Of a stretch of DNA of 64,000 nt, positions 7,638 through 42,290 are shown in pieces. The DNA is from Lunularia cruciata (Eukaryota; Streptophyta; Marchantiopsida; Lunulariales; Lunulariaceae), in contig OX419762.1 of assembly GCA_948567375.1 (NCBI GenBank), forward strand, positions 32,121,465 to 32,185,464. The letters run 5' to 3'. The position numbers were made by a program, and so were the translations under genes. Positions within the stretch are counted from its first letter, which is position 1. Every line of letters starts with the position of its first letter. The notes beneath the pieces are model-generated. The model saw only the letters and a list, made by a program, of their open reading frames with translations. It was not told the DNA's origin and did not search any database.

Positions 7638-8389
7638 TGTAATACGCCGAGGATAGGAACCTGAAGAGGAACGCACCATGAGAAACACACACTTTCACAC
7701 TCAAACTTTGATGCCCCAAAGGAGCACCTTCTCTTTATTATATAGGTAAAGCGGATCTCCTCCAATGAAGCTCCACCATAGGATTAAGTACATAGATAGG
7801 TGACATGTCAGCAAGCTCCACCCTTGGATTACTTACTTGTATGGGTGACATGTTGGTCCTGGTCTTATCTGGTTGGTCAAACAAGCTTTGACCAGAGAGA
7901 ATCTTTTAGGGAATCTTCCTGTAGGAATCTCAGAATCACGTGGGTGAGGTACCATTGGAAAGCTCTCGACGAGACAAAGCAAGAGGGAGGGAATGCTAGC
8001 CTTTCCTTTGGTGGGGGGGATCTGCACATTTTTGAGGCCTAATTCATCCGTTTAGGCTTCCAAAATTGCCTTCAAAGATTTCAGGCATATTTTGGTTCTA
8101 ACTCTATTAGTAGAAGTCCCCTTTTGGTGATACATCTTTCTAATCTATTCAGTCTATCCTGTGTAACATCATTCCAGATGTTACCAACCCAATTCTCACC
8201 TTTAAATCATATGTCTAGCTATTGGTTCTAAGGTTTTCAAATCTATTTTGGTTTTTTGCCCTATTATTAGAAGTACCCTTTTGGTGATACTTCTATCTGA
8301 TCTATTTTGACCATCATGTATAACATCAATTTAGATGTTACCAAACCAAATTTCACATCTAGATCATATGGCTAGCTCTTTGTATTACA
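7638..8389 (-). repeat. 3' LTR of chromovirus copy 2
   Basis: It runs from TGTAATACG to TATTACA on the plus strand and pairs with the LTR at 13,484. It contains two copies of the 130-150-bp internal unit (about 8,085-8,230 and 8,250-8,389). A purine-rich tract on the coding strand lies immediately inside it (8,390-8,405). Confidence 0.9.
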
Positions 8390-9845: not shown

Positions 9846-11180
9846 CTAAACCTCTACCATTAAGTTGTTTGCCATTGGCATGCGGGTGAATGCATCTGCA
9901 AGTTGCTTTTTACCTTCAACGTAGGTGATTGTCATGTTGAAGCGTTGTTGCCACTCTACCCATCGAATCTGGTGACGAGATAGATCCTTCTGCGTCTCAA
10001 GGTAAACTAGAGGTTTATGGTCTGTCTCTACCACAAATGCCTTCTCACCCTGCTAGTGTTTCCAATGCATGGTTGCCAAGACGATGGCCAACTCATCTTG
10101 TTCTGTGGTGTAGTAGTTGCACTTTGCCGATAACAACTTTTGAGAGAAATATGCAATGGGATGCTATCCTTCATGCCATTATTGTTGTAGGACTGCTATG
10201 ATTGCTACGCATGATGTGTTTGTAGCTAACTTGATTGGACATTTTGGGTCATACTATTTCAAGATTGGTGCATGTAGCAAGGTGACTTTCAATTCTTGAA
10301 AGGCCAACTCTTGTGCGGTTCTCCATGTCACTTCTTCCCCTTGCCAAGCAGTGCTATTAAAGGTTGTGCAACCTTGGAGAAGTCCTTGACAAATCGACAA
10401 TAGAATCCCGTCAAACCCAAGAAGCTCTTGAGTTGAGTCTGATCTTATGGGGCTCTCCATTTTTGTATGACCTTTAATTTATCTATGAATACTTGAATAC
10501 CCTCTGCACTTACTCTGTGCCCCAAGTAGTCTACTTCAGACTTGCCAAACTCACACTTTGAAATTTTGGCATACAATTGATTTTGTCTTAGAATCTGGAG
10601 GACTTCTCATAGATGTTGTTTGTGTTCCATCATCATGCTATTGTATACTAAGATGTCATCCAGGAAGACAATGACAAACTTATCCAAATATGAACAAAAT
10701 ATGTCATTCATTAGACTCATGAAAGTGGCAGGTGCATTGGTGAGACCAAAAGGCATCACGGATACTTGAAGTGGCCATACCTGGTTCAGAAGGCAGTCTT
10801 GTACACATCCTCCTATGCAATTTGGATTTGATTGTAACCGCTCTGCAAATCTAGTTTGGTGAAGTGTCTTGCTCCATTGAGTTGATCAAATAGATCATCC
10901 ATGCGAGGTAAGGGGTATTTGTTCTTGACTGTTTGTTGATTGAGACCTCGATAGTCAATGCACATGCGCATTATACCGTCTTTCTTCTTCACAAACAAGA
11001 CCAGAGCCCCATATGGTGATATACAATGTTGGATGAACCCTTTCTGTAGCATATCCTCAATTTGATTCTTGCACTCCTCTAACCCATGAGATGATAGGCG
11101 ATATGGGGCCTTACAGGGGGGTGTCTTTCTGCGGAGTGTCTCAATTTTATGATCTACTCTCCTTTTTGGTGGTAACCCTG
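9846..11180 (-). pseudogene. RT and RNase H region of copy 2
   Basis: RNase H motifs include VETDHKPLVYL and KKQLADAFTRMP (9,846-10,034). RT motifs upstream include [34 protein letters not shown] and [11 protein letters not shown] (about 10,830-11,180), and the FLDD catalytic region near 10,640-10,680. Together these copy element RNA into DNA and remove the RNA strand. Sequence is clearly chromovirus-like. Confidence 0.85.
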
Positions 11181-11379
11181 AGGGTAGATCATCAGGAAAG
11201 ACATCTTGAAACTCATTTATGACATCCAACAATTTCTCAGGAATTTGTCCCTTGAGTTGTGCACTCTGGACTTCTCTTATTAGACCCATGAAACACCTAT
11301 CAGTCTTACAGATAGTTGTTGTTCCTATGACATACAGAGGCAATTCTTGCCTATGTGGTTTTTCTTTAACCCCAATGAT

Positions 11380-11990
11380 CGACCATTGGTGGGTTCTCAC
11401 TAATTTCTTCCTCCAATCTACCATAGGGTTGTAATGCTCCATCCATGGCATACCTAAGATTGCATTATAATGAGCTAATTGTATCACTCGCCACTCAACT
11501 GCTTCTTGATATTTTCCTACAGAGAGTGTTACACACCTGGGTAATGATTCAATCCTCTCTGTTTGTCCAGTAGGTAACTCTACTTCTTCACTCTCATCTC
11601 TCTCTAGATCCATTCCCAATCTTATTGCAATAGAGCAAGACAAGAAATTCTATGTGGCTCCTGGATCTATTAACACTCTCACTTGATTGCCTTCTAGGAC
11701 CACATTCACTACAATCAATTGTGAGGTTGCCTTTTGGTACCTTTGTGCGCTTGTCTTCTTCCTTCCCTTTTTTTCTAGCTTCCTTATTGAGCCAGTAAGG
11801 CCACAAGGTACATTTACTGGCAATCTCATTTTCCAAAGTGACTTCCACCTCCTCCTCTTCAGTGCATCTCTCCATGTTGTTCAAACATCACCTGTATGAA
11901 GGTTGAGGGCCTCTGGAAAGTTGAGCATGATAGTTGGTAGATATATGCCCAATACAACCACAATTGTAACAACGGCGTTGTTCTCCTTGA
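11380..11990 (-). pseudogene. Protease and CCHC nucleocapsid region of copy 2
   Basis: The peptide with [14 protein letters not shown] is the C-terminal part of a gypsy aspartic protease, with the Ile-Leu-Gly-Met-x-W motif. Upstream at about 11,930-11,971 lies a zinc knuckle start, CYNCGCIGHIS, from the nucleocapsid portion of gag, preceded by an arginine-rich stretch. Confidence 0.75.
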
Positions 11991-13483: not shown

Positions 13484-14235
13484 TGTAATACGCTGAGGAT
13501 AGGAGACCTGAAGAGAAACACACCATGAGAAACACACACTTTCACACTCAAACTCTGATGCCCCAAAGGAGCACCTTCTCTTTATTATATAGGTAAAGCG
13601 GATCTCCTCCAATGAAGCTCCACCATAGGATTAAGTACATAGATAGGTGACATGTCAGCAAGCTCCACCCTTGGATTACTTACTTGGATGGGTGACATGT
13701 TGGTCCTGGTCTTATCTGGTTGGTCAAACAAGCTTTGACCGGAGGGAATCTTTTAGGGAATCTTCTTGTAGGAATCTCAGAATCACGTGGGTGAGGTACC
13801 GTTGGAAAGCTCTCTATGAGACAAAGCAAGGGGGAGGGAAGGCCAACCTTTCCTCTATTGGGGGGGAATCTATACATTTTTTAGGCCTAATTCATCCATT
13901 TAGGCTTCCAAAATTGCCTTCAAAGATTTCAGGCATATTTCGATGCCAACTCTATAAGTAGAAGTCCCCTTTTGGTGATACATCTTTCTGATCTATTCAA
14001 TCCATCCTGTGTAACATCATTCCAGATGTTACCAACCCAATCTCACCTTCAAATCATATGTCTAGCTATTGGTTCTAAGGTTTTCAAATCTATTTGGGTT
14101 TTCTGCCCTATTAGTAGAAGTACCCTTTTGGTGATACTTCTATATGATCTATTTGACCATCATGTATAACATCGTTCCAGATGTTACCAAACCAAATTTC
14201 ACATCTAGATCATATGGCTAGCTCTTGGTATTACA
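13484..14235 (-). repeat. 5' LTR of chromovirus copy 2
   Basis: A 752-bp partner of 7,638-8,389, TG...CA, followed by the ACTCA target duplication at 14,236-14,240. Confidence 0.9.
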
Positions 14236-32327: not shown

Positions 32328-32331
32328 GTGT
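32328..32331. repeat. Target-site duplication GTGT, left
   Basis: GTGT directly before TGTCGTGCG matches GTGT at 42,287-42,290 directly after ...ATGACA. The bounded element then has TG...CA ends. Confidence 0.8.
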
Positions 32332-32887
32332 TGTCGTGCGTATATACATCGCTACACAACATACATCGCTGTCAACATCATACACTATAAAAGCACAACT
32401 CACACATAAGTCATACATAGACTCTAAAGTGCCACAATTAATCAGATTGCTTAACATTCTCAACTCAACTCAACTCAGATCAGTACTTGATCTGTCACTC
32501 TATAAACTGCCAACAATTGGGCACTGATTACAGTCAAGCCACACCCACTCAAGCATAGAGAATCCAGGTGACGCTCGCTGGCCTCTGTCCACCATAGCCA
32601 GGAACTCGAAGGCTCAACATCAGAGAAGTGAGCTCTCTGGAGCTCACTTTGAAACTATACCCCCTGGACTCGAGCTAGCCCTGAAACCCTAACGGTCCTG
32701 CTGACGGCACACTCGACGGTGCAAACGGTGCAAAGTGACGGTGGGCCCCACCGTGAAGTCAGTACCCCGAACACAAAATCTAACCGTCGGAAAGTAGTCC
32801 CTGAGAAACAGCTAGAATAACTCTAACTACCATCACTGGAACTCTAGTGTCCGAGCATCTAGATGCGGAACTACAAATGGCGTGACA
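32332..32887 (-). repeat. 3' LTR of methyltransferase element (556 bp)
   Basis: It consists of segment A (32,332-32,438, 107 bp) and segment B (32,439-32,887, 449 bp) in plus-strand order. The solo LTR at 50,597-51,149 has the same two segments in the same relation, which shows that A plus B is the complete LTR. TATAAAAG at 32,386-32,393 lies on the strand opposite to the element's genes. Confidence 0.9.
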
Positions 32888-32889
32888 GC

Positions 32890-32996
32890 TGTCGTGCGTA
32901 TATACATCGCTACACAACATACATTGCTGTCAACATCATACACTATAAAAGCACAACTCACACATAAGTCATACATAGACTCTAAAGTGCCACAAT
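32890..32996 (-). repeat. Extra 107-bp copy of LTR segment A inside the 3' end
   Basis: Nearly identical to 32,332-32,438 (one difference noticed: cattgctgtc for catcgctgtc). It is separated from the LTR by two bases (GC) and abuts the polypurine tract on its inner side. The arrangement 'LTR end - GC - LTR' resembles the junction of two LTRs in tandem. Confidence 0.9.
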
Positions 32997-33008
32997 CGCC
33001 CCCCTAGC
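32997..33008 (-). promoter_or_regulatory. Polypurine tract of methyltransferase element
   Basis: The coding strand reads GCTAGGGGGGCG directly before the terminal repeats, the expected place for the primer of plus-strand DNA synthesis. Confidence 0.7.
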
Positions 33009-33169
33009 TGGTGGTTAGGTCCCTCTAACTCCAGATAGCCATCTACTCTAAGTATATGGTATACCCTCTAATGGGCAAAGATCAGGAGGCCGGGTGCTAT
33101 GGAGCCCCATCGTTAGTCGACTGTCTGCAATCTATACCATATAAAGAATGAACTAGCTATAGGTCAAGT

Positions 33170-33304
33170 ACATCTAGGACATAACCACTGTCCCTGAGGA
33201 ACCACCGTGAGGGGAGGAGTCATACATGCCATATGCCATCCTCTCGAACAGCTATCACACACTAACATAGTAGCAGCTCCACCAGAAGAGCCACATAACA
33301 TACA
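33170..33304 (-). CDS. C-terminal PHD finger of the polyprotein
   Basis: The last 45 residues carry a complete C4-H-C3 zinc signature: CMLC, then VCDSC, then WHMAC, then WLCPRC. They include the hallmarks of PHD fingers: W two residues before the third zinc pair, the PPL stretch after HMAC, and the final W-x-C-x2-C. PHD fingers read the N-terminal tail of histone H3, usually its K4 methylation state. Placed after the integrase where chromoviruses carry a chromodomain, it probably tethers the integration complex to chosen chromatin (inference). RING and LIM spacing do not fit. Histone preference cannot be read with confidence; the acidic patch typical of H3K4me0 readers is weak. Confidence 0.9.
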
Positions 33305-33359
33305 CCTCAAGCCTGCACGTACAAGTGCCAAGCTTGGATCCATAGTACCATCAATGTTT

Positions 33360-34408
33360 GGGAGGTGGCATGGCGCACAATTGCGCACATGATCCTTCCA
33401 AACAACACCATCACGTCCTTCTAACACAAGGACTCCAGATGGCAAAACCTCGCGCACTCTCAAGATAGTGCGGCCTGTAGAAACATCAAGTGTCGTCGGT
33501 GCTGTCTGCTGTAGATATACATAGTCGCTTGGATGAAATCGACGGATCGAGGGTCTATAACCTCCTCCTCGAATGGTAGCATAGCGTAAAGTATCTCTAT
33601 GCTGAGCAATCGCCAAGTTCTCGAAGGCCATCGGCATCACTCTCCGAAAGATCTCTGCCCGCTGAGAACATGCGCTCATCCATACATCAGGGTCATCCAA
33701 GTCCAAAACTACAGTAGCATCTCGACGAATGGCTGCAGGTAAATCTGGATCTCGTCCATAGAGTAGAAAGTATGGAGAGAAGGATGCTAAGGAGGCTTGC
33801 CGGCTGAACCGATAGCCCATGGCCAACCAAGGTAACTGGAGATCCCAATCTCCCAAGTGGCCTCTCTGCAAACCATACTTTTGCAATCCTCTCTTCACCG
33901 TCTGAACCACTCTCTCTGCTAAGCCATCTGCCTCAGGGTGATCTCGGGATGTAGTACGATGATCAATCAAAGCCTTGTCACACAAGACCTGAAACTCTCC
34001 CAAGAACTCTGTACCCTGATCAGTCAAAACCTCAGCTGGTGCACCAAAATGACTAAGAACTCGATCCAGGAACGAGTAAGCTGTCCCTTCACTAGACTTG
34101 TCAGGAAGTGCCACCAACTCAATCCACTTGGAGAAGTGCTCCACCATCACCAAAACATACCGATGATGTCTCACAGTCAGCGGTAAAGGTCCGGCGAAGT
34201 CCAAACTCCAACAGTAACCCAATCCCATGATAGGTAATGGGTGTAACTGTGGCGTAGGAGCATTGAATGATGCTCTAACTCGGTCACAAACCACACATCT
34301 GGCAACAAACTGCTGTACCTCGGTCTGCATACCGCGCCACCAATAATGACTCTGGAGTAAGCTATATGTACGCTTTACTCCAAAATGTCCTAGCTCCTCA
34401 TGAGCATG
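33360..34408 (-). CDS. Integrase (DD35E) of methyltransferase element
   Basis: The N-terminal zinc-binding HHCC is HAHEELGHFG ... CVVC. The catalytic core has SLDFAGPLP, LTDQGTEFLG and PEADGLAERV, with 60 residues between the first two aspartates and 35 between the second and the glutamate. A C-terminal SH3-like segment (HPSDYVYLQQT ... VLVLEGRDG) follows and leads into the PHD finger. Integrase joins the DNA copy to host DNA. A GTGT duplication at the ends of this insertion implies a 4-bp stagger, whereas chromovirus copy 2 has 5 bp. Confidence 0.92.
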
Positions 34409-34789
34409 ACGGACCAACTGTGGTCTCTGTGATGGAAGTGGTACTACTCGCACTCTACCATCCTCCCATACACGCAAAAGGTGTCTACCCTCCAATCTGA
34501 ACCGTCTGGCCCGCTGAAGAACACGGTCTCTCTCCTTGGCCCCAACTGTGCCACCCACAACACCAGTGCGAAGATAGTCCATCACTAAGACATCATCATG
34601 AATGTCTTGCTGAACTGTACCAATATCTTCACTCTCTGGATCTGTGACCTCAATAACTCCTCCTGTATGCGCTGAGAGAGATACCACCAATGTCTCTGCA
34701 AATATACACAGAAAGGCCGATGCATGCCAACCTGGCACCATCTCCTCATCTGTCTCACCATGCCAACGTGCTCCGGTCTGATCCTGCTG

Positions 34790-35125
34790 GCTGGGACATG
34801 GGTTTCTACTCAACCCATCTGCATCACGGTTCACCACTCCAGGTCTGTGAACAACCGTGAAATCATACTCCTGTAAAATCAGAGCCCATCGTGCAAGCTT
34901 CCCTGAAAGCTTGTCGGACTCCATCAACCACTTCAGCGGCTGATGATCAGTGATGAGAGTGAAGGGGTTACCAAATAGGTAACATCGGAAATGTGCTACT
35001 GCCCAAACTGCTGCCAAGCACTCTCCCTCTTATGAACTATACTTCGCCTCCGCTGAATTGTTGGAGCGACTAGCATAGGCCACCACAAACTCCTTCTCCT
35101 CATCATCATGTTGGGTGAGCACCGC
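34790..35125 (-). CDS. RNase H region of methyltransferase element
   Basis: Motifs VHTDWSMLGLGAVL, LITDHQPLKWL and VNRDADGLSR follow the RT thumb/connection and mark the gypsy-type RNase H, which degrades the RNA template during reverse transcription. Confidence 0.88.
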
Positions 35126-35399
35126 TCCAAGCCCCAACATACTCCAATCAGTGTGAACCTGAAATGGTCGTCCCCTGATCGGTCTCCTCAAAATAGGAGC
35201 AGATGTCAACCTCTCCTTGAGCTCTACAAAAGCTCTCTCCTGCTCATCTCCCCAACACCACTCCTGTGTAAGCTTGGTCAGCTTCGTCAAGGCCTTGGCA
35301 ATGGCACTAAATCCTCTAACATAGCGGTGATAGAAGTTTGCCAACCCAAGGAATGCTCGCACTCTGCTCACATCCGTAGGCCAAGGAATACGTGCAATA

Positions 35400-36075
35400 G
35401 CCTCCACCTTGGTCTGTTGAACACCAAGTCCTCCGGGGTAGATAGTGTGACCCAAATACTCAACCTGCTCATGGAAGAACCTACACTTCCCAGGATGTAA
35501 TTTGAGTCCATGAGATCTCAACCTCTCAAACACCTCCAACAACTGTCTCTCATGCTCCTCCACAGTAGTGCTATACACCAAAATGTCATCAATATAGCAC
35601 CAAGCAAAATCCAGTCCAGCTAGGATCCTATCCATGACCCTCTGGAACTCAGCAGGAGCATTCTTCAACCCAAATGGTAAGAATCTCCACTGATATAACA
35701 CATCCTTGCCGTGAGGATCAATAGCCCAAAATGCTGTCTTGGACTTATCTTCCTCCCTGATCGGCAATTGATGATATCCCGCTCGAAGATCCAAAGTACT
35801 GAAGACCTTTGCATGCCCAATCGCATCAAAAATCTCCTCCGGTGTAGGCATGGCATACCGATCAGCCCTGGTCTGTCGGTTGATAGGACGGTAATCTCCA
35901 CACATCCGCCTATCTGTATAGTTGCCATGCATATCCTTCTTGGCTGGCATCACTGTCGCTGATGCATACTCTCTATGTGAAATCTCCACCAAACCAGCCT
36001 CAAAAAGGTCACTACTCCGGCTCTGAATCAATGTCCTCTCCATCTCACTATATCGATAAGGACGTCGGAAAACAG
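35400..36075 (-). CDS. Reverse transcriptase of methyltransferase element
   Basis: Ordered RT motifs are RMCGDYRPINRQT, STLDLRAGYHQLPI, FLPFGLKNAPAEFQRVMD, the catalytic CYIDDILVYS (YIDD at about 35,585-35,596), KLHPGKCRFF and LGLANFYHRYV. These are diagnostic of Ty3/gypsy. The wording (DLRAGYHQ, YIDDILVYS) is distinct from the FLDD-type chromovirus RT copies elsewhere in this window, so this is a different gypsy lineage. Confidence 0.95.
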
Positions 36076-36279
36076 GTGTGTCGCTAGTCAGCTCAATCCG
36101 TATACCAGGTCCCTTCAGAGCACCCAAATCCTTCATACTGAAGGCAAAACAACTTGTGTGACTCCTCAAGAACCTCCAAACCCTCCGTCTTTCCTCTCCA
36201 GTAAGCTTGGGTCCAAGATCTGGCTCCCAAGTATCCTCTGTAACTGTAGTAGGAGTGGAAGACGTACTGACTAGCTGCT

Positions 36280-36580
36280 ATACTGGGCCCTTGGGAGCAA
36301 TGGTGTCATGCTCCCGACCACTAGAGGTCCCAACCTCTGTGTGAAAAACTCCCTCCACTCTGGCTGCAAGCTCCATACGTCCTCTGGCTGCATCCCATGT
36401 GGACCAAGGGTGTAATCCAAGTAGCCCACGCTCACCTGGATGGACTCCAAGTAGACCACTCTCCCTAGTAGCTACTGGATGTGTCCCAAGAATACCATGT
36501 CCACTCGGTCCATCGCCCCCAGCATGTGCCTGAATTGTCTCGATAGGCACAGGGCTCACAAGTGTCCGAGTGGTGATGCC
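36280..36580 (-). other. Linker between methyltransferase and RT with GxLGxHP repeats
   Basis: The peptide downstream of the methyltransferase motifs contains three spaced GxLGxHP-type units (GILGTHP, GLLGVHP, GLLGLHP). No known domain matches. It may be a flexible spacer or a protease-processing region (inference). Confidence 0.6.
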
Positions 36581-36599
36581 TATCAAGCGCATCCTACGC

Positions 36600-37565
36600 T
36601 GCTCTGCCAAACCAAGGCTCACAATCCAGGTCAAACAGTTCAGGTCCATAGCCTGACCTAACACTTGACGCCTGGATGCCTCTGACACTGCTGGAACAGC
36701 GGTAATACCGGTGCAAAAACCCATCGCCCGCTCTCTCTCATCAGCATTGGGCTCCACCAATTGCTGTAACTGTGAGTCCCAAACAAGTCCAGGTCCTCCC
36801 TCTCGAAAAGCATGAGAGCCTGGGAAACTCATGAGTGTGGGAAATGCAGCTCTAGGCTGTCCAACTAGGTTCACCACTGCCATGGGTGACCTATCAGCCA
36901 CTACCATTGTCTGAGACTAACGCCCAACATCCAAGATATCATCAACAAGAATGTGGTCCAGTCGCTGAATCCCATCATAAGCACGCTGTAGAACCTCTCT
37001 GGGTAAGAGGTTTGTCCACCAAAGACGAAGACGATGAGCCCGTGATCCCACTCTGGCTGCATCTAACAATACAGCAGGTCCCATCCATGAATGGACCTGA
37101 TGTGTACTCGCCACCACTCTAGTGCGAGAATCACCCATCAATGGAACGTTCTCCAAAAGGTAAGCTGGAGAAACATACTGATGAACCTGGAGATGTCGTA
37201 GTATCCGTAACATCTCCCAAAACACACCAGAACGAGGATCCTGAAGACCCAAACCGCGGCCCGCACGTGTATGTCCCTGACATGGCCATCCAGAAATCAC
37301 CAAGTGAACAGGCCCATGTCTCTCTAGGTCATGCGCCCCCAGTAAGGAAATGTCTCTTGGTAAGGCCTTCTGGTAACCTCTGACTGCTGACATCGGTAAT
37401 AGCTCCGGATACCGATAGGCCAAGTGTGCCACATGATGTAGAGAGACTCGCCTAGCAGTCTCATCTCTCTCTACATACAAGTACCTCTGTACTCGGATAC
37501 CCGCTTGTAATACCGCAGCTAGTCCGGTGCTGATCCCACCAAACAACTCCAATAGGCATATCCCC
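36600..37565 (-). CDS. DNMT3-like cytosine-5 DNA methyltransferase domain
   Basis: Motifs in order: I, LLELFGGISTGLAAVLQAGI (S-adenosylmethionine binding; compare DNMT3 SLFDGIATG); IV, VISGWPCQGHTRAGRG (Pro-Cys catalytic pair); VI, YLLENVPLMGD (Glu-Asn-Val); VIII, AARVGSRAHRLRLWWTNL (compare DNMT3 IKVSAAHRARYFWGNL); IX-like, ADERERAMGF (compare EMERIFGF); X-like, RRQVLGQAMDLN. The linear order and the wording of I, VIII and IX fit DNMT3 better than DNMT1, CMT or the rearranged plant DRM enzymes. It would transfer methyl groups to cytosine C5 in DNA. It lies between protease and RT, where gypsy elements normally carry nothing. The catalytic residues of all core motifs are present. Confidence 0.9.
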
Positions 37566-37993
37566 TCTACTGGATACTGCCAAGCAATGAGTGTGGTATC
37601 TAGAGGTGTCAAAGCAATCGCCTCTAGAGGCTCATCCTCACACTCATCCCTTGATGGTACGAAGGCTCCACTCCAAGCCTGCTGCACCAACTGATCTGCA
37701 TGCTGCTGCAATGCCTCCTCTGAACTCCACAATGGAACATCCAAGGTGGATGGAACAATCCCACTCGTACTCCATAGCCGAGTGATCTCCTTTGGTATTG
37801 GAGTATCCTCTGCATGGGCGTTCCCCTCCAACAAGTCACCAGGCCAAGTAACTGCACCGTTGAAAGCCAAAACTGATGCTGCCATGGTCCCGGACTGTAG
37901 TGAGCCAAGACTGCCACTACTGAAGCTTACTGGTAGGCGACATACCCGTCCCTCACCAGACTGCCAACCAGGTCTATAAGAGGCTGTCTCCTC

Positions 37994-38326
37994 CCAATAG
38001 TCAATACTGAAACCCATAGGGTATAACACTGCTCCCCCAACTAGCACATCATAGGACTCAGCTATCGTCGCAATAGCCTGAGCTCTCACCACCGAGCTAT
38101 CAGTCGGATGACCAGGCTGAACCTGGACAACAAGCTCTCCACGTGTGATGTACTGTGTCGAACCACCACCAAGAGATGTCTGGATCTGAAATGGACACCT
38201 CTCCACATCGGTCTTCCGTAACTCCAGACTAACAACTGCAGCCTTCCCCAACATAAGGGGCTGCGCACCAGAGTCTAACAAGACTCTCTGTGGTGTATAG
38301 ACCTTCCCTGAAGGTCCTACCAAACG
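37994..38326 (-). CDS. Aspartic protease of methyltransferase element
   Basis: The motif RVLLDSGAQPLMLG contains the DSG catalytic triad, with downstream ATIAESYDVLVGGAVLYPMG as the retropepsin 'ILG' half. This protease would cut the polyprotein. A long region of about 290 residues without recognised domains (roughly 38,320-39,190) separates it from the zinc knuckles. Confidence 0.85.
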
Positions 38327-39189
38327 AAAGATCCCCCTCTGGTTATCCAATAGGACAACACCAGGTGTAAACCGCGCTCTCTCAAAGGCCGGTCTAGCTG
38401 GCAACTCCTCCAGTCTAGCCGCTGCTGCCTGCCATAAACCACTGGTCGCTGAACGGATCCCATGCTCCTCAACCAAGTCAGCTCCACTACCAACCACCTC
38501 TGCTCTAGTAGTAGGAACTGCACCATCCCTACTCTCACACAACGTGGCAGCCAACCGGAACACTGGGGCTGGGTCCACTCCCAATGTAAACATGTCACTG
38601 GCTGAAAATAAAGGATGCCGCATAATCAGCTGAGCCGCCCCCAACATCATGCTAGACTCAATCTGTGTAGTAGCAGGTGGCTGACTAGCAGGTATTCCAT
38701 CAGGTACTCCATCACCACCTACCACACCTGCACTGGGACGTCTAGGAACCATGGATGTCGTCTGCAATGCCTCAGATAGCGTGAAAGACTGGGGAAGTCT
38801 GACCTGTCTCCCAACCTCTCCTCTCTGTGGGTCCAACTCCACTGATGCTCCTCTAGGCTCTGGAGCACGTACTGCACTCCTAGTCACTGCTGCAGATGCA
38901 TCCACCTGTGCTGCTCCGCACATGAAGTCCAAAGCATCTCTATCACCAGCATATGAGGTGGAAGCCTCAGCACCCGAATCTGATCTCCTATGAGCAATAG
39001 CCATACTAGCCAATCTCTGCTCCAACTGCTCAATCCGAGTAGCCATAGTTGTGTCAGAAGTAAGGGCAGGTACTGCACCCCTACTAGGTGTAGATCCTCT
39101 ACCACCACCTCTACCACCTCGTCCTCCATGAACTGGAGCTCCTCTACTACCTGCCATAGCAGCCCTACCACTCAGTAACTCCGGGTGTA

Positions 39190-40363
39190 GGTCAAAACAC
39201 CGGTCACTAGTATGACCAAATCTATGGCAGTGCTCACACTGCCTCTGTGCTGGCTGTGATGCACCAGAGGTATCAGGTCCGCTGCCCTGAGTACACTCTC
39301 TCCTATGGTGAGGTCCACCACAAGTCCAACAAGCAACACCACCACTCACTGGTTGCTGCTGACCCGAAAATGAGGGTAAGGGTCTAACTCCACTAGGCCC
39401 TCCACTCGCTCCATAGGATCTGGGCTGTCCACCCTGTCCTCGAAACCCAACTGGGCGTGGTGCACTCTGCTGCACTCTAGAAGAAGTCACAACCATGGAT
39501 GAGGTCTCTCTACCAAATCCAGATGTCACCACTCTCTCCTCCACCATGTTGAGCTCAATACGCTCAGCCAAACCAAAGACTACTGCCAAAGTGGGCGAAG
39601 TAGCCTGCAACAACGTAGCATCACGAACTCTACGTCGCAACTCCCTGTCCAGTATCCCATACCAAAACTGGACTGCCTGGGCCTCAGTAACTCCCTGAGT
39701 GAAACTGATCAGCCGCCTCATGCGAGTGTATGCCTCGCGTAGGCTCTCTCCAGCCTTCCGCTGGAACTCCTGCAAGCTCCTCAGCTTGTCAGTCCGCACT
39801 CCCTGGTAGTTCTGCCTCAAACATAGGAAGAACTCAACCATGGGGTTAAACCCCGGTACCACACCACCTCCTGCAGCGGTACCTCCACTCGTAGTAGCAC
39901 TATCTCCAGCTAGTGCACCTCCACTAGCTCCACCAACACTACTCGAGCTAGAACTCGTAGGTACAGCCGACCTACTCCTGGCCACCGAACCTGAAGTGAT
40001 GGAGACATAGTGTGGAGACCAATACTGTCTCCATAACTCAATCTCCTCCAAATGAGCTCTCCTGAACTCATGGTAGTCGTCCATCGGTGGACCCTCCAAG
40101 TGCTGAAACAACCCCTTCCATGCCATGAAGGGTGTGAACAAAGTCGGGTTCCGCATCTGCTGTAGATCACACCAACTATCGAACTCCTGGATGAAGTCAT
40201 CCAACTCAATGGTACCCACTGTACCAGAGTAACGCCTAGGGCCTTTGGAGGCCCCATAAATCTCGTCCATGTCCCACAACAACGGTGCAGACACACCAAG
40301 TGCACTCTCAACTGAATCAGCTCCTGTGTTGAACTCCAACTCAGAGTCAATCTCCTCCCTCAC
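39190..40363 (-). CDS. Gag with two CCHC zinc knuckles, methyltransferase element
   Basis: It starts MREEIDSELE at 40,363. A capsid-type helical region (FQHLEGPPMDDYHEFRRAHL ... REAYTRMRRLISFTQG) is split by a Ser/Gly-rich insert. A Gly/Gln-rich stretch leads to two knuckles, CWTCGGPHHRREC and CEHCHRFGHTSDRC (about 39,197-39,331), then an RG-rich tail. Gag packages the RNA. The first in-frame methionine was taken as the start, about 1.5 kb downstream of the 5' LTR. Confidence 0.85.
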
Positions 40364-41837
40364 TGGGACCTGAGATACAGGCTGATACCGAGCACCACTC
40401 CGAGTAAACCCACTGCGTACTGCAGGGCTAACTCCTCTGGAATCTCCAAAGAACTCCGTCGTGACAAAGTAACCACACTAACAAACCCGAACCACCAACT
40501 GCAACAGCAAGTCGCAACCGCAAGTGCCCCACCAAGTGCCAACACCACCGCGTGCCAACACCAACTAAAACACCACCCACTAATGTAACTCTAACCGAGA
40601 TAACTACACTAGGGGAAGGGCAACCTGTAACCTGCCATCATAACACGCACTCTCACGGTCTGCAGGTCATCACTTCCTGCCTCACCGGAGAGAAACAAAG
40701 GTAGTCTGACTGGTCATCACTCCAGCCTCACCACCAAGAGCACACCAGAGCACCAACGCTCAAAAGTCAAGGCACCTCACACAAACGTGGTGCACAAACA
40801 GGAAGCAGAGAATGGAGGGGATCCAATCACAATAAATCTAAACGAAAACCCTCCATCTCATAACACAACACGGGACTGACTCTGCCACCATTTGGCATTT
40901 GACATAAGAGTAGTTCGTATCTAAGTCCTAAGCTACTAGGATCACCAAGAATGGGATCAAACTGCCTCTCCTAGCCAAAGCTACATGTGTATAGATAACA
41001 GTGGCACAGTCACTATGACAACAAGTGAGGGTGGACCAGTTGGCTAGGGCACCAGTCTAGGAACAAGAGATCTAGGGGTCAAACCCTGTTGCGCACAATC
41101 TAGCAAGAAAGGCAGATTTTGCCAACCAATGACCAAGATCTACACTAAACTAGCTAGCCTCACGCCAGCAAGCTGGCTTGCTGGCCCTTCTGGCCCTTCT
41201 AGGCCTTCGTAGCCTCTCATAGCCCACAGCCCTATGCCTCGAAGCCTCGAAACGCCAAAATTCAGCCAAATGAGGCCTTTCTTGTTGCCACTTCAAACCT
41301 CCTCCAAAATTGGCGAAACTTCTCCAAATCTGCGAAACTCCTCCAAACTAGCGAAACTTCTCCAAATCTGGCCAAACAGCAAAACTCCTCCAATTCTGGC
41401 CCAAAATCTGACGTAAATCTGACGTAAAATCTGACGTAAACCCTAAAGATGGATGTCCGCCAAATCCCCCGCTAACTTTCCACTCGAGCCAAATTGACAA
41501 AACGGGTTTTTCCAAATCACAATTTCATGAGAAGAGCTTTCCAACTCCACCTTCAATTTCACTTTTCGAGCCCAACTCGCAGCAAATTGGTCCTGCCTTC
41601 ACCTCCTGAGCTCAAAATCACAACACTGCTCGAAAATTGCTCCTTCTTTGCTCGAAATTTGGCCAGCGCTTCCGCACACCGTCCGCCTAACTGCCAAATT
41701 TGTATCAACTACACGAGTTCTGCACACTAGGGAAACACAGAACCTGAATCGAGCTACCACGATCCACCGAGCTTGGAGATACCACCAACACTCAACGTTC
41801 CTGCACCCGATTTCCCCCTGACTTCACTTCTCTGATG
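40364..41837 (-). other. 5' leader of methyltransferase element with short tandem repeats
   Basis: An untranslated leader of about 1.47 kb. At 41,290-41,402 a degenerate 18-20-bp unit (GCGAAACTTCTCCAAATCT) recurs about five times, and at 41,405-41,440 ATCTGACGTAA recurs three times. No convincing upstream reading frame on the coding strand. The sequence next to the LTR (TCAGAGAAGTG on the coding strand) is only a partial match to known primer-binding sites. Confidence 0.6.
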
Positions 41838-42286
41838 TAATCAGATTGCTTAACATTCTCAACTCAACTCAACTCAGATCAGTACTTGATCTGTCACTCT
41901 ATAAACTGCCAACAATTGGGCACTGATTACAGTCAAGCCACACCCACTCAAGCATAGAGAATCCAGGTGACGCTCGCCGGCCTCTGTCCACCATAGCCAG
42001 GAACTCGAAGGCTCAACATCAGAGAAGTGAGCTCTCTGGAGCTCACTTTGAAACTATACCCCCTGGACTCGAGCTAGCCCTGAAACCCTAACGGTCCTGC
42101 TGACGGCACACTCGACGGTGCAAACGGTGCAAAGTGACGGTGGGCCCCACCGTGAAATCAGTACCCCGAACACGAAATCTAACCGTCGGAAAGTAGTCCC
42201 TGAGAAACAGCTAGAATAACTCTAACTACCATCACTGGAACTCCAGTGTCCGAGCATCTAGATGCGGAACTACAAATGGCATGACA
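41838..42286 (-). repeat. 5' LTR of methyltransferase element (449 bp)
   Basis: It matches segment B of the 3' LTR (32,439-32,887) over exactly 449 bp with about five transitions. Segment A is not present on either side. Directly outside lies GTGT (42,287-42,290), the target duplication. Confidence 0.9.
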
Positions 42287-42290
42287 GTGT

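Follow-up and report, generated by a model that had tools for sequence, protein, structure and literature searches.

What is a cytosine DNA methyltransferase doing inside a retrotransposon of the liverwort Lunularia cruciata, and is it a property of the element family or of a single copy? We analysed a stretch of 64,000 nucleotides from contig OX419762.1 (the window), for which a sequence-only reading had reported a DNMT3-like enzyme at positions 36600-37565, between the protease and the reverse transcriptase (RT) of a plant LTR retrotransposon. The location holds. The domain lies within a single retroelement of 9955 bp on the minus strand (32332-42286), and its features are listed in Table 1.

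The element is coded in one frame that runs from about position 40270 down to 33164 on the minus strand and that in this copy contains in-frame stops, namely two TAG codons and one TAA codon ahead of the final stop. The encoded parts are, in order, a Gag-like stretch, two CCHC knuckles, an aspartic-protease-like motif, the methyltransferase, RT, RNase H, an integrase with H2C2 and rve domains, and a PHD finger. We take the protease-like segment and the zinc knuckles of Gag to be such from their motifs. The order of RT, RNase H and integrase, together with a Ty3-type RT, assigns the element to Ty3/Gypsy, and among solved structures the closest RT comes from Ty3 (4ol8, 3.2e-56). A Pfam scan of the element ORFs identified rve and H2C2 and no phage-type integrase, and hence no tyrosine recombinase was found in the element. 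Elsewhere in the window, the same 45-bp tandem repeat is present at 7768-7853 and 13615-13700 with an RVT_1 fragment between the two (ORF 10813-11643), and these repeats probably mark the two ends of a further LTR element.

Table 1. Features of the methyltransferase-carrying retroelement, in window positions and in the orientation of the element.
Feature	Position	Strand	Evidence
4-bp target-site duplication, left flank, ACAC in element orientation	42287..42290	.	
Repeat A, first copy, 449 bp; element start TGTC at 42286	41838..42286	-	
Probable start codon	40268..40270	-	analogy with Marchantia models starting at a matching MDG
Gag-like stretch, weak	39668..39820	-	PF03732 0.039, under cut-off
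Two CCHC zinc knuckles, presumably of Gag	39197..39331	-	motif
Aspartic-protease-like segment (LLDSGAQ ... YDVLVG)	38012..38284	-	motif; Pfam in window copy, nothing above 0.1
DNMT3-like C5-methyltransferase, motifs I to X	36635..37549	-	Pfam, profile, fold, motifs
Motif I	37523-37549	-	
Motif IV (Cys)	37274-37291	-	
Motif VI (Glu-Asn)	37145-37159	-	
Motif VIII	37010-37045	-	
In-frame TAG within methyltransferase, between VIII and IX, window copy	36917..36919	-	3/41 copies
Motif IX	36716-36739	-	
Motif X	36635-36661	-	
UAG between methyltransferase and RT, then CAGCUA (fits CARYYA)	36278..36280	-	copy alignment
RT and first part of RNase H, Ty3/Gypsy type	35036..35917	-	PF00078 8.6e-33, PF17919 2.3e-21
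In-frame TAA, RT-RNase H part, window copy	35030..35032	-	reading-frame inspection
Integrase, H2C2 zinc-binding and rve core	33935..34435	-	PF17921 7.1e-19, PF00665 6.7e-13
PHD finger, polyprotein C-terminus, after integrase	33170..33304	-	PF00628 1.2e-10
Purine run GGGGGGCG immediately upstream of first B; candidate primer for the plus strand	32997..33004	-	
Repeat B, first copy, 107 bp	32890..32996	-	
Palindrome GACAGCTGTC at junction of first B and second A	32884-32893	-	
Repeat A, second copy, 449 bp; 5/449 positions unlike first A	32439..32887	-	
Repeat B, second copy, 107 bp; element end ...GACA at 32332	32332..32438	-	
4-bp target-site duplication, right flank, ACAC in element orientation	32328..32331	.	

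The methyltransferase domain is real, as the sequence-only reading had proposed from its motifs. Motifs I, IV with its cysteine, VI with its Glu-Asn, VIII, IX, and X of the C5 methyltransferases follow each other in a linear, non-rearranged order, and the profile check that had been suggested gave a significant match: PF00145 hits the window ORF 36917-40363(-) at residues 1019-1082 with an E-value of 7e-07, above the gathering score. The likeness to DNMT3 was likewise borne out. In a phmmer search of 36920-37720(-) against the PDB sequences, DNMT3A (3.4e-09) and DNMT3B ranked first, and a profile built from 12 members scored DNMT3A at 1.2e-25, followed by DRM (7e-12), HaeIII (6e-10), and HhaI (3e-09). 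The profile alignment extends over motif IX and, weakly, over motif X. An AlphaFold2 model of a stretch from a natural copy (L033) has a mean pLDDT of 86.8, and the 50 matches listed of 1324 in a Foldseek search with the model are DNMT3 entries, with an E-value of 8e-19 and a TM-score of 0.82 on DNMT3A, to which the element enzyme is about 21% identical. By both profile and fold, DNMT3 is the type of C5 methyltransferase nearest to the enzyme.

We rejected a DRM origin on the linear motif order and the lower profile score, and a bacterial methyltransferase on the scores of HaeIII and HhaI, which fall far under that of DNMT3. On host exons, which span different parts of the domain, the element profile scored 53 bits for a DNMT3-like, 29 for a DRM-like, and 8 for a CMT-like sequence. 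The element enzymes form a group of their own in the methyltransferase tree, in which the host is represented by two short, long-branched references only, one DNMT3-like and one DRM-like. Four loci without a match to the element appear to be genes of the host, namely L001 and L004 (DNMT3-like), L002 (DRM-like, with a rearranged motif order), and L003 (CMT-like); the labels of L003 and L004 rest on motifs judged by eye.

To place the window copy within its family, we used two samples of copies. A PF00145 search of the window's own assembly (565.8 Mb) gave 2161 candidates, of which 123 were scored, and 40 copies were picked by hand from the 123 rows, mostly with longer open frames, so that stops are under-counted in this set. 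L005 is another copy of the family outside the set of 40. A search with the RT gave 49,831 candidates, of which 101 were scored; ten of these rows were taken for comparison of the methyltransferase stretch, and another set of ten was picked for long downstream frames. Other copies carrying the domain, which the sequence-only reading had recommended to look for, were found in both samples. All 40 fetched copies contain the methyltransferase, through which they were chosen, and belong to the same family, with 84-99.5% identity in the protein pieces compared. Nine of the ten RT-chosen copies hold the full-length stretch without indels. The copies of the family number in the dozens and are spread over eight large contigs. 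Eight contigs of 60-85 Mb make up 558 of the 566 Mb of the assembly, and its plastid accD is closest to that of Pallavicinia lyellii (93% over the full length) and to a Sphagnum-labelled cluster (94% over 97%), as would fit a bryophyte and probably a liverwort.

The catalytic residues are strongly conserved. All 50 copies that span these sites have retained the cysteine and the glutamic acid; motif VIII keeps one of its two arginines in 48 of the 50 and the other in 45, and motif I is exact in 33. The cysteine is also present in 108 of the 111 homologs that cover the site. Among the homologs P0001-P0152, the residue before the cysteine in motif IV is a glutamic or aspartic acid instead of a proline in 15 of the 111 that cover it, some of them from Closterium, which is unusual for C5 methyltransferases. 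The pooled dN/dS for the nine RT-chosen copies is 0.283 for motifs I-VIII, 0.278 for the part beyond, and 0.37 for the linker. For the 41 profile-chosen copies, from which L061 was left out since its first 703 nt are absent, the values are 0.372, 0.505, and 0.664, respectively, and 0.313 for RT-RNase H. With other region borders, the second half gives 0.375 and the linker 0.75. The domain is held about as strictly as the RT in the less biased sample, and its second half is looser in the larger one.

Many copies are nevertheless interrupted. At least one stop precedes the conserved UAG (see below) in 27 of 41 copies, and two more contain a frameshift; an in-domain stop at alignment codon 305 is common to 14 of the 41, and seven of the nine full-length RT-chosen copies have an additional stop ahead of the UAG. 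These stops and frameshifts imply that most copies are dead. Some copies may have spread using an enzyme supplied from elsewhere, and one lineage possibly without its own enzyme. The element is not depleted in CpG, with an observed/expected ratio of 0.49 versus 0.27 and 0.15 in its flanks, and thus does not show the loss of CpG that self-methylation might leave behind. In the methyltransferase-RT region of 41 copies, singleton C-to-T changes amount to 0.259 per site for CHG, 0.216 for CG, and 0.143 for CHH. This ranking is the one to be expected of copies methylated in the manner of plants.

The enzyme had been read as part of the gypsy polyprotein, which is correct except that the frame is interrupted. 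A TAG corresponding to that at 36278-36280 is present in 51 of 51 copies (41 profile-chosen and 10 RT-chosen), which rules out a degenerative mutation and means that the enzyme does not lie within one uninterrupted gag-pol frame. The stop is directly followed by CARYYA in 49 of the 51 copies. A UAG with this hexamer is the type I context for readthrough, described for tobamoviruses among others (PMC5382211), and the element has this context, with a frame under selection downstream of the UAG. None of the open frames in the 101 RT-chosen rows is longer than 1037 amino acids, the distance from the UAG to the next stop, and by our own count 25 rows have exactly this length, as given by a tool that reads through stops inside the match. 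Six Gag-side gene models from Calypogeia and Marchantia (P0002, P0003, P0004, P0005, P0007, P0017) terminate at most about five residues from the UAG position. Twelve database models continue from the methyltransferase into the RT without a stop; those from Marchantia are probably bridged by predicted introns, and those from Closterium are perhaps truly fused. The sequence pattern suggests that the UAG of the liverwort elements is a site of programmed readthrough, which would place the enzyme on the Gag rather than the Pol side.

The termini of the element are not two equal LTRs: the left end consists of repeat A (449 bp) and the right end of B (107 bp), A, and B, giving the plan A-coding-B-A-B. 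In a comparison that matched four right ends and three left ends, one of them in part since the retrieved stretch stops there, the B copies were 98-100% alike in the four elements in which the first B was compared, and the palindrome GACAGCTGTC was present at the junction of the first B and the second A in all four. An exact 4-bp duplication flanks all 12 copies in which both flanks were recognised, never one of 5 bp, and of 132 pairs of flanks taken from different copies, two agree. The right end is GACA in 14 of 14 copies; the left end, recognised within the retrieved stretch in 12 of these, is TGTC in 11 and TGAC in one (L089). The junction of the second A and B reads CTGATT-ATTGTGG in 12 of the 14 copies and has one extra base in the other two. 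Equal LTRs with a 5-bp duplication, as might be read from the window on its own, are ruled out by the 4 bp seen in 12 copies. The ends are permuted relative to those expected of the cDNA, and together with the 4-bp duplications this would imply a circular cDNA opened at the palindrome. Such a route would explain the arrangement of the repeats, the palindrome, and the variable junction together.

Relatives of the element are found in other genera. A protein search listed 32 matches, including P0001 (76% identity), Calypogeia fissa (73%), many proteins from Marchantia polymorpha (35-73%), Sphagnum fallax (46%), Closterium (35-45%), and metagenome proteins. The 120 of 240 matches listed in a profile search add Sphagnum troendelagicum, Marchantia paleacea, and Riccia sorocarpa. 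The named hosts among the matches listed are liverworts, Sphagnum, and Closterium, plus one bacterial MAG label. The latter protein (P0038, “DNA cytosine methyltransferase” from a Candidatus Obscuribacterales MAG) falls within the element family and is probably mis-binned eukaryotic DNA. In three metagenome proteins (P0021, P0023, P0028), the methyltransferase is located after the RNase H and not ahead of the RT, and P0023 adds an integrase and a PHD finger. This second architecture means that the enzyme has either moved or been captured twice. The methyltransferase and RT trees, the latter of eight rows and without an outgroup, contain the same three groups, and this match would favour one old capture and a later move. 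A protein from a 23-Mb contig of S. troendelagicum (P0048), 71% identical, is placed inside the liverwort group with weak support, which would fit either old vertical descent or horizontal transfer.

The nearest solved chains to the PHD finger, among the 60 of 88 matches listed, are those of CHD4, KMT2D, MLL3, PHF12, KDM5, and DPF3. PHD fingers of that sort tend to read unmodified H3 tails, and our guess is that the finger targets the element to chromatin. The domain is also annotated in the relatives P0022, P0023, and P0030. In P0022, a metagenome protein, a G-patch domain (PF01585) is located between the methyltransferase and the integrase.

An element of this kind has been described from the charophyte alga Klebsormidium nitens. 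KnitGypsy-Dnmt3 is reported to carry a Dnmt3 in a Gypsy element with a DIRS repeat structure and to be under purifying selection (de Mendoza et al. 2018, PMC5890265), and the presence of DNMT3s in streptophyte retrotransposons is restated in a 2025 paper (PMC12344493). As far as the published description goes, the two elements share the Ty3/Gypsy domains, a Dnmt3-type enzyme in the coding frame, the linear motif order, purifying selection, and the plan A-coding-B-A-B. However, KnitGypsy-Dnmt3 is algal and its enzyme is in the Pol ORF, whereas the enzyme of the window element appears to be on the Gag side; the stop before the RT, the PHD finger, the target duplication, and the land-plant host also set the window element apart from KnitGypsy-Dnmt3 as described. 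Judged against this description, the window element is of the KnitGypsy-Dnmt3 type, combining Gypsy domains, a Dnmt3, and DIRS-type repeats, and the window copy is an inactivated member of an abundant, old Ty3/Gypsy family of that kind. The core finding is thus already known in kind, and what the sequence-only reading had called unexpected in a host defended by methylation has a published precedent in an alga, besides being represented in the window by a defective copy.

Other systems are more distant. SymbioDIRS-Dnmt3 and SymbioLINE-Dnmt of dinoflagellates are also retroelements with a C5 methyltransferase, but they are described as having a tyrosine recombinase or LINE machinery, without a DDE integrase, and were published as independent captures. 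The DIRS/PAT-type elements have the same split direct repeats, A-coding-B-A-B, yet use a tyrosine recombinase, while the window element has a DDE integrase and 4-bp target duplications. The cellular DNMT3s (animal DNMT3A/3B and plant DNMT3) are similar in motif order, profile, and predicted fold; the element enzyme differs from these in having no companion domain in the same product. Relative to the open-licence descriptions consulted, the additions made here are the relatives in liverworts, Sphagnum, and Closterium, the location of the enzyme on the Gag side ahead of a stop of the leaky type, the PHD finger, the target duplications of 4 bp, and the model of opening at the palindrome.

The explanation that we consider best, with a probability of roughly 0.45 for the whole, is that the methyltransferase is a working part of a Gag-side polyprotein, is packaged, and methylates the cDNA of the element, which integrates by a circular route. 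Ribosomes would make mostly Gag-PR-methyltransferase, and readthrough of the UAG would yield some RT-RNase H-integrase-PHD, so that the enzyme would be packaged with the RNA at Gag-like amounts. Plus-strand synthesis would start at the purine run, reverse transcription would give B-A-coding-B-A, and the packaged enzyme would methylate the new double-stranded cDNA. The ends would then be joined into a circle. The integrase would nick this circle where B and A meet in the palindrome, and insertion of the TGTC/GACA ends with a 4-bp stagger would regenerate A-coding-B-A-B. Pre-methylated cDNA may resemble host DNA and be less sensed or degraded, with milder harm to the host. Methylation of its own cDNA is our best guess at what the enzyme does for the element, and the roles put forward in the sequence-only reading, such as tuning of its own silencing or masking of its DNA, are likewise conjectural.

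The target of the enzyme could be another one. Instead of cDNA, it may act on chromatin or host DNA around the integration site, in which case the integration complex would be guided by the PHD finger. The window element has this finger at the C-terminal end of its integrase part, and the three relatives also contain one, which agrees with such a role, but the enzyme and the PHD finger flank the stop on opposite sides, so that most of the enzyme would be made without the finger, and we regard this as the least probable of the roles considered. It is somewhat easier to imagine, though still unlikely, that the domain has been retained for something other than catalysis, such as the binding of nucleic acids, or for action on RNA, or that it is a passenger in slow decay. 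The stops ahead of the UAG in 27 of 41 copies and the looser second half in the larger sample (dN/dS of 0.51) point in this direction, as does the K. nitens domain, which did not methylate in yeast, a result that its authors call inconclusive, while SymbioDIRS domains methylated CG in the same host; the same authors suggest RNA methylation for the LINE type (PMC5890265). The invariant Cys and Glu in 50 copies, the Cys in 108 of 111 homologs, and the dN/dS of 0.28 in the RT-chosen copies argue against these options and for a working enzyme.

The same reading depends on the stop and the termini. If the UAG were not read through, the RT part would come from spliced RNA or internal initiation; four Marchantia models (P0006, P0011, P0012, P0016) do join the methyltransferase to the RT by skipping the linker, but gene models are predictions, a random hexamer fits CARYYA in about 1 of 512 cases (by arithmetic) whereas 49 of 51 copies have it, and the window contains no ATG within the first 40 codons past the UAG, all of which makes this doubtful. 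We are similarly sceptical of an ordinary linear integration in which B-A-B goes back to an old duplication and has since been copied passively. Some room is left for it, since the purine run and the primer site are candidates and the B copies were compared in four elements only; however, the usual scheme of reverse transcription would bring back two equal ends, and the near-identity of the B copies and the exact 4-bp duplications outside the permuted ends in 12 of 12 copies, one of which (L089) has TGAC as its left end, speak against passive copying. The outcome that the sequence-only reading had named as contrary to its claim, a one-off capture or an assembly artefact, could appeal to the two stops in the window copy that most copies lack, but the presence of the domain throughout the family, whose dozens of copies lie across eight large contigs, the selection on it, and the named relatives in other genera rule this out for practical purposes.

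The retrovirus-type integrase follows, in the textbook route, a linear substrate. The permuted ends with their 4-bp duplications suggest that such an integrase can routinely use a circular one. A wider picture, which we offer as speculative and rather improbable as a whole, would be a streptophyte-wide lineage with a DDE integrase, from algae to liverworts, in which a closed circular cDNA is opened at the palindrome, DNMT3 made at Gag level pre-methylates it, and the PHD finger chooses the chromatin. Cytosine methylation is the means by which plants silence transposons, and a conserved methyltransferase of the de novo type within such an element is therefore a testable paradox. Given the high copy number, the relatives in Marchantia, a tractable model, and the constant recoding-type signal, the question of whether mobile elements methylate their own cDNA, and for what reason, becomes a practical one.
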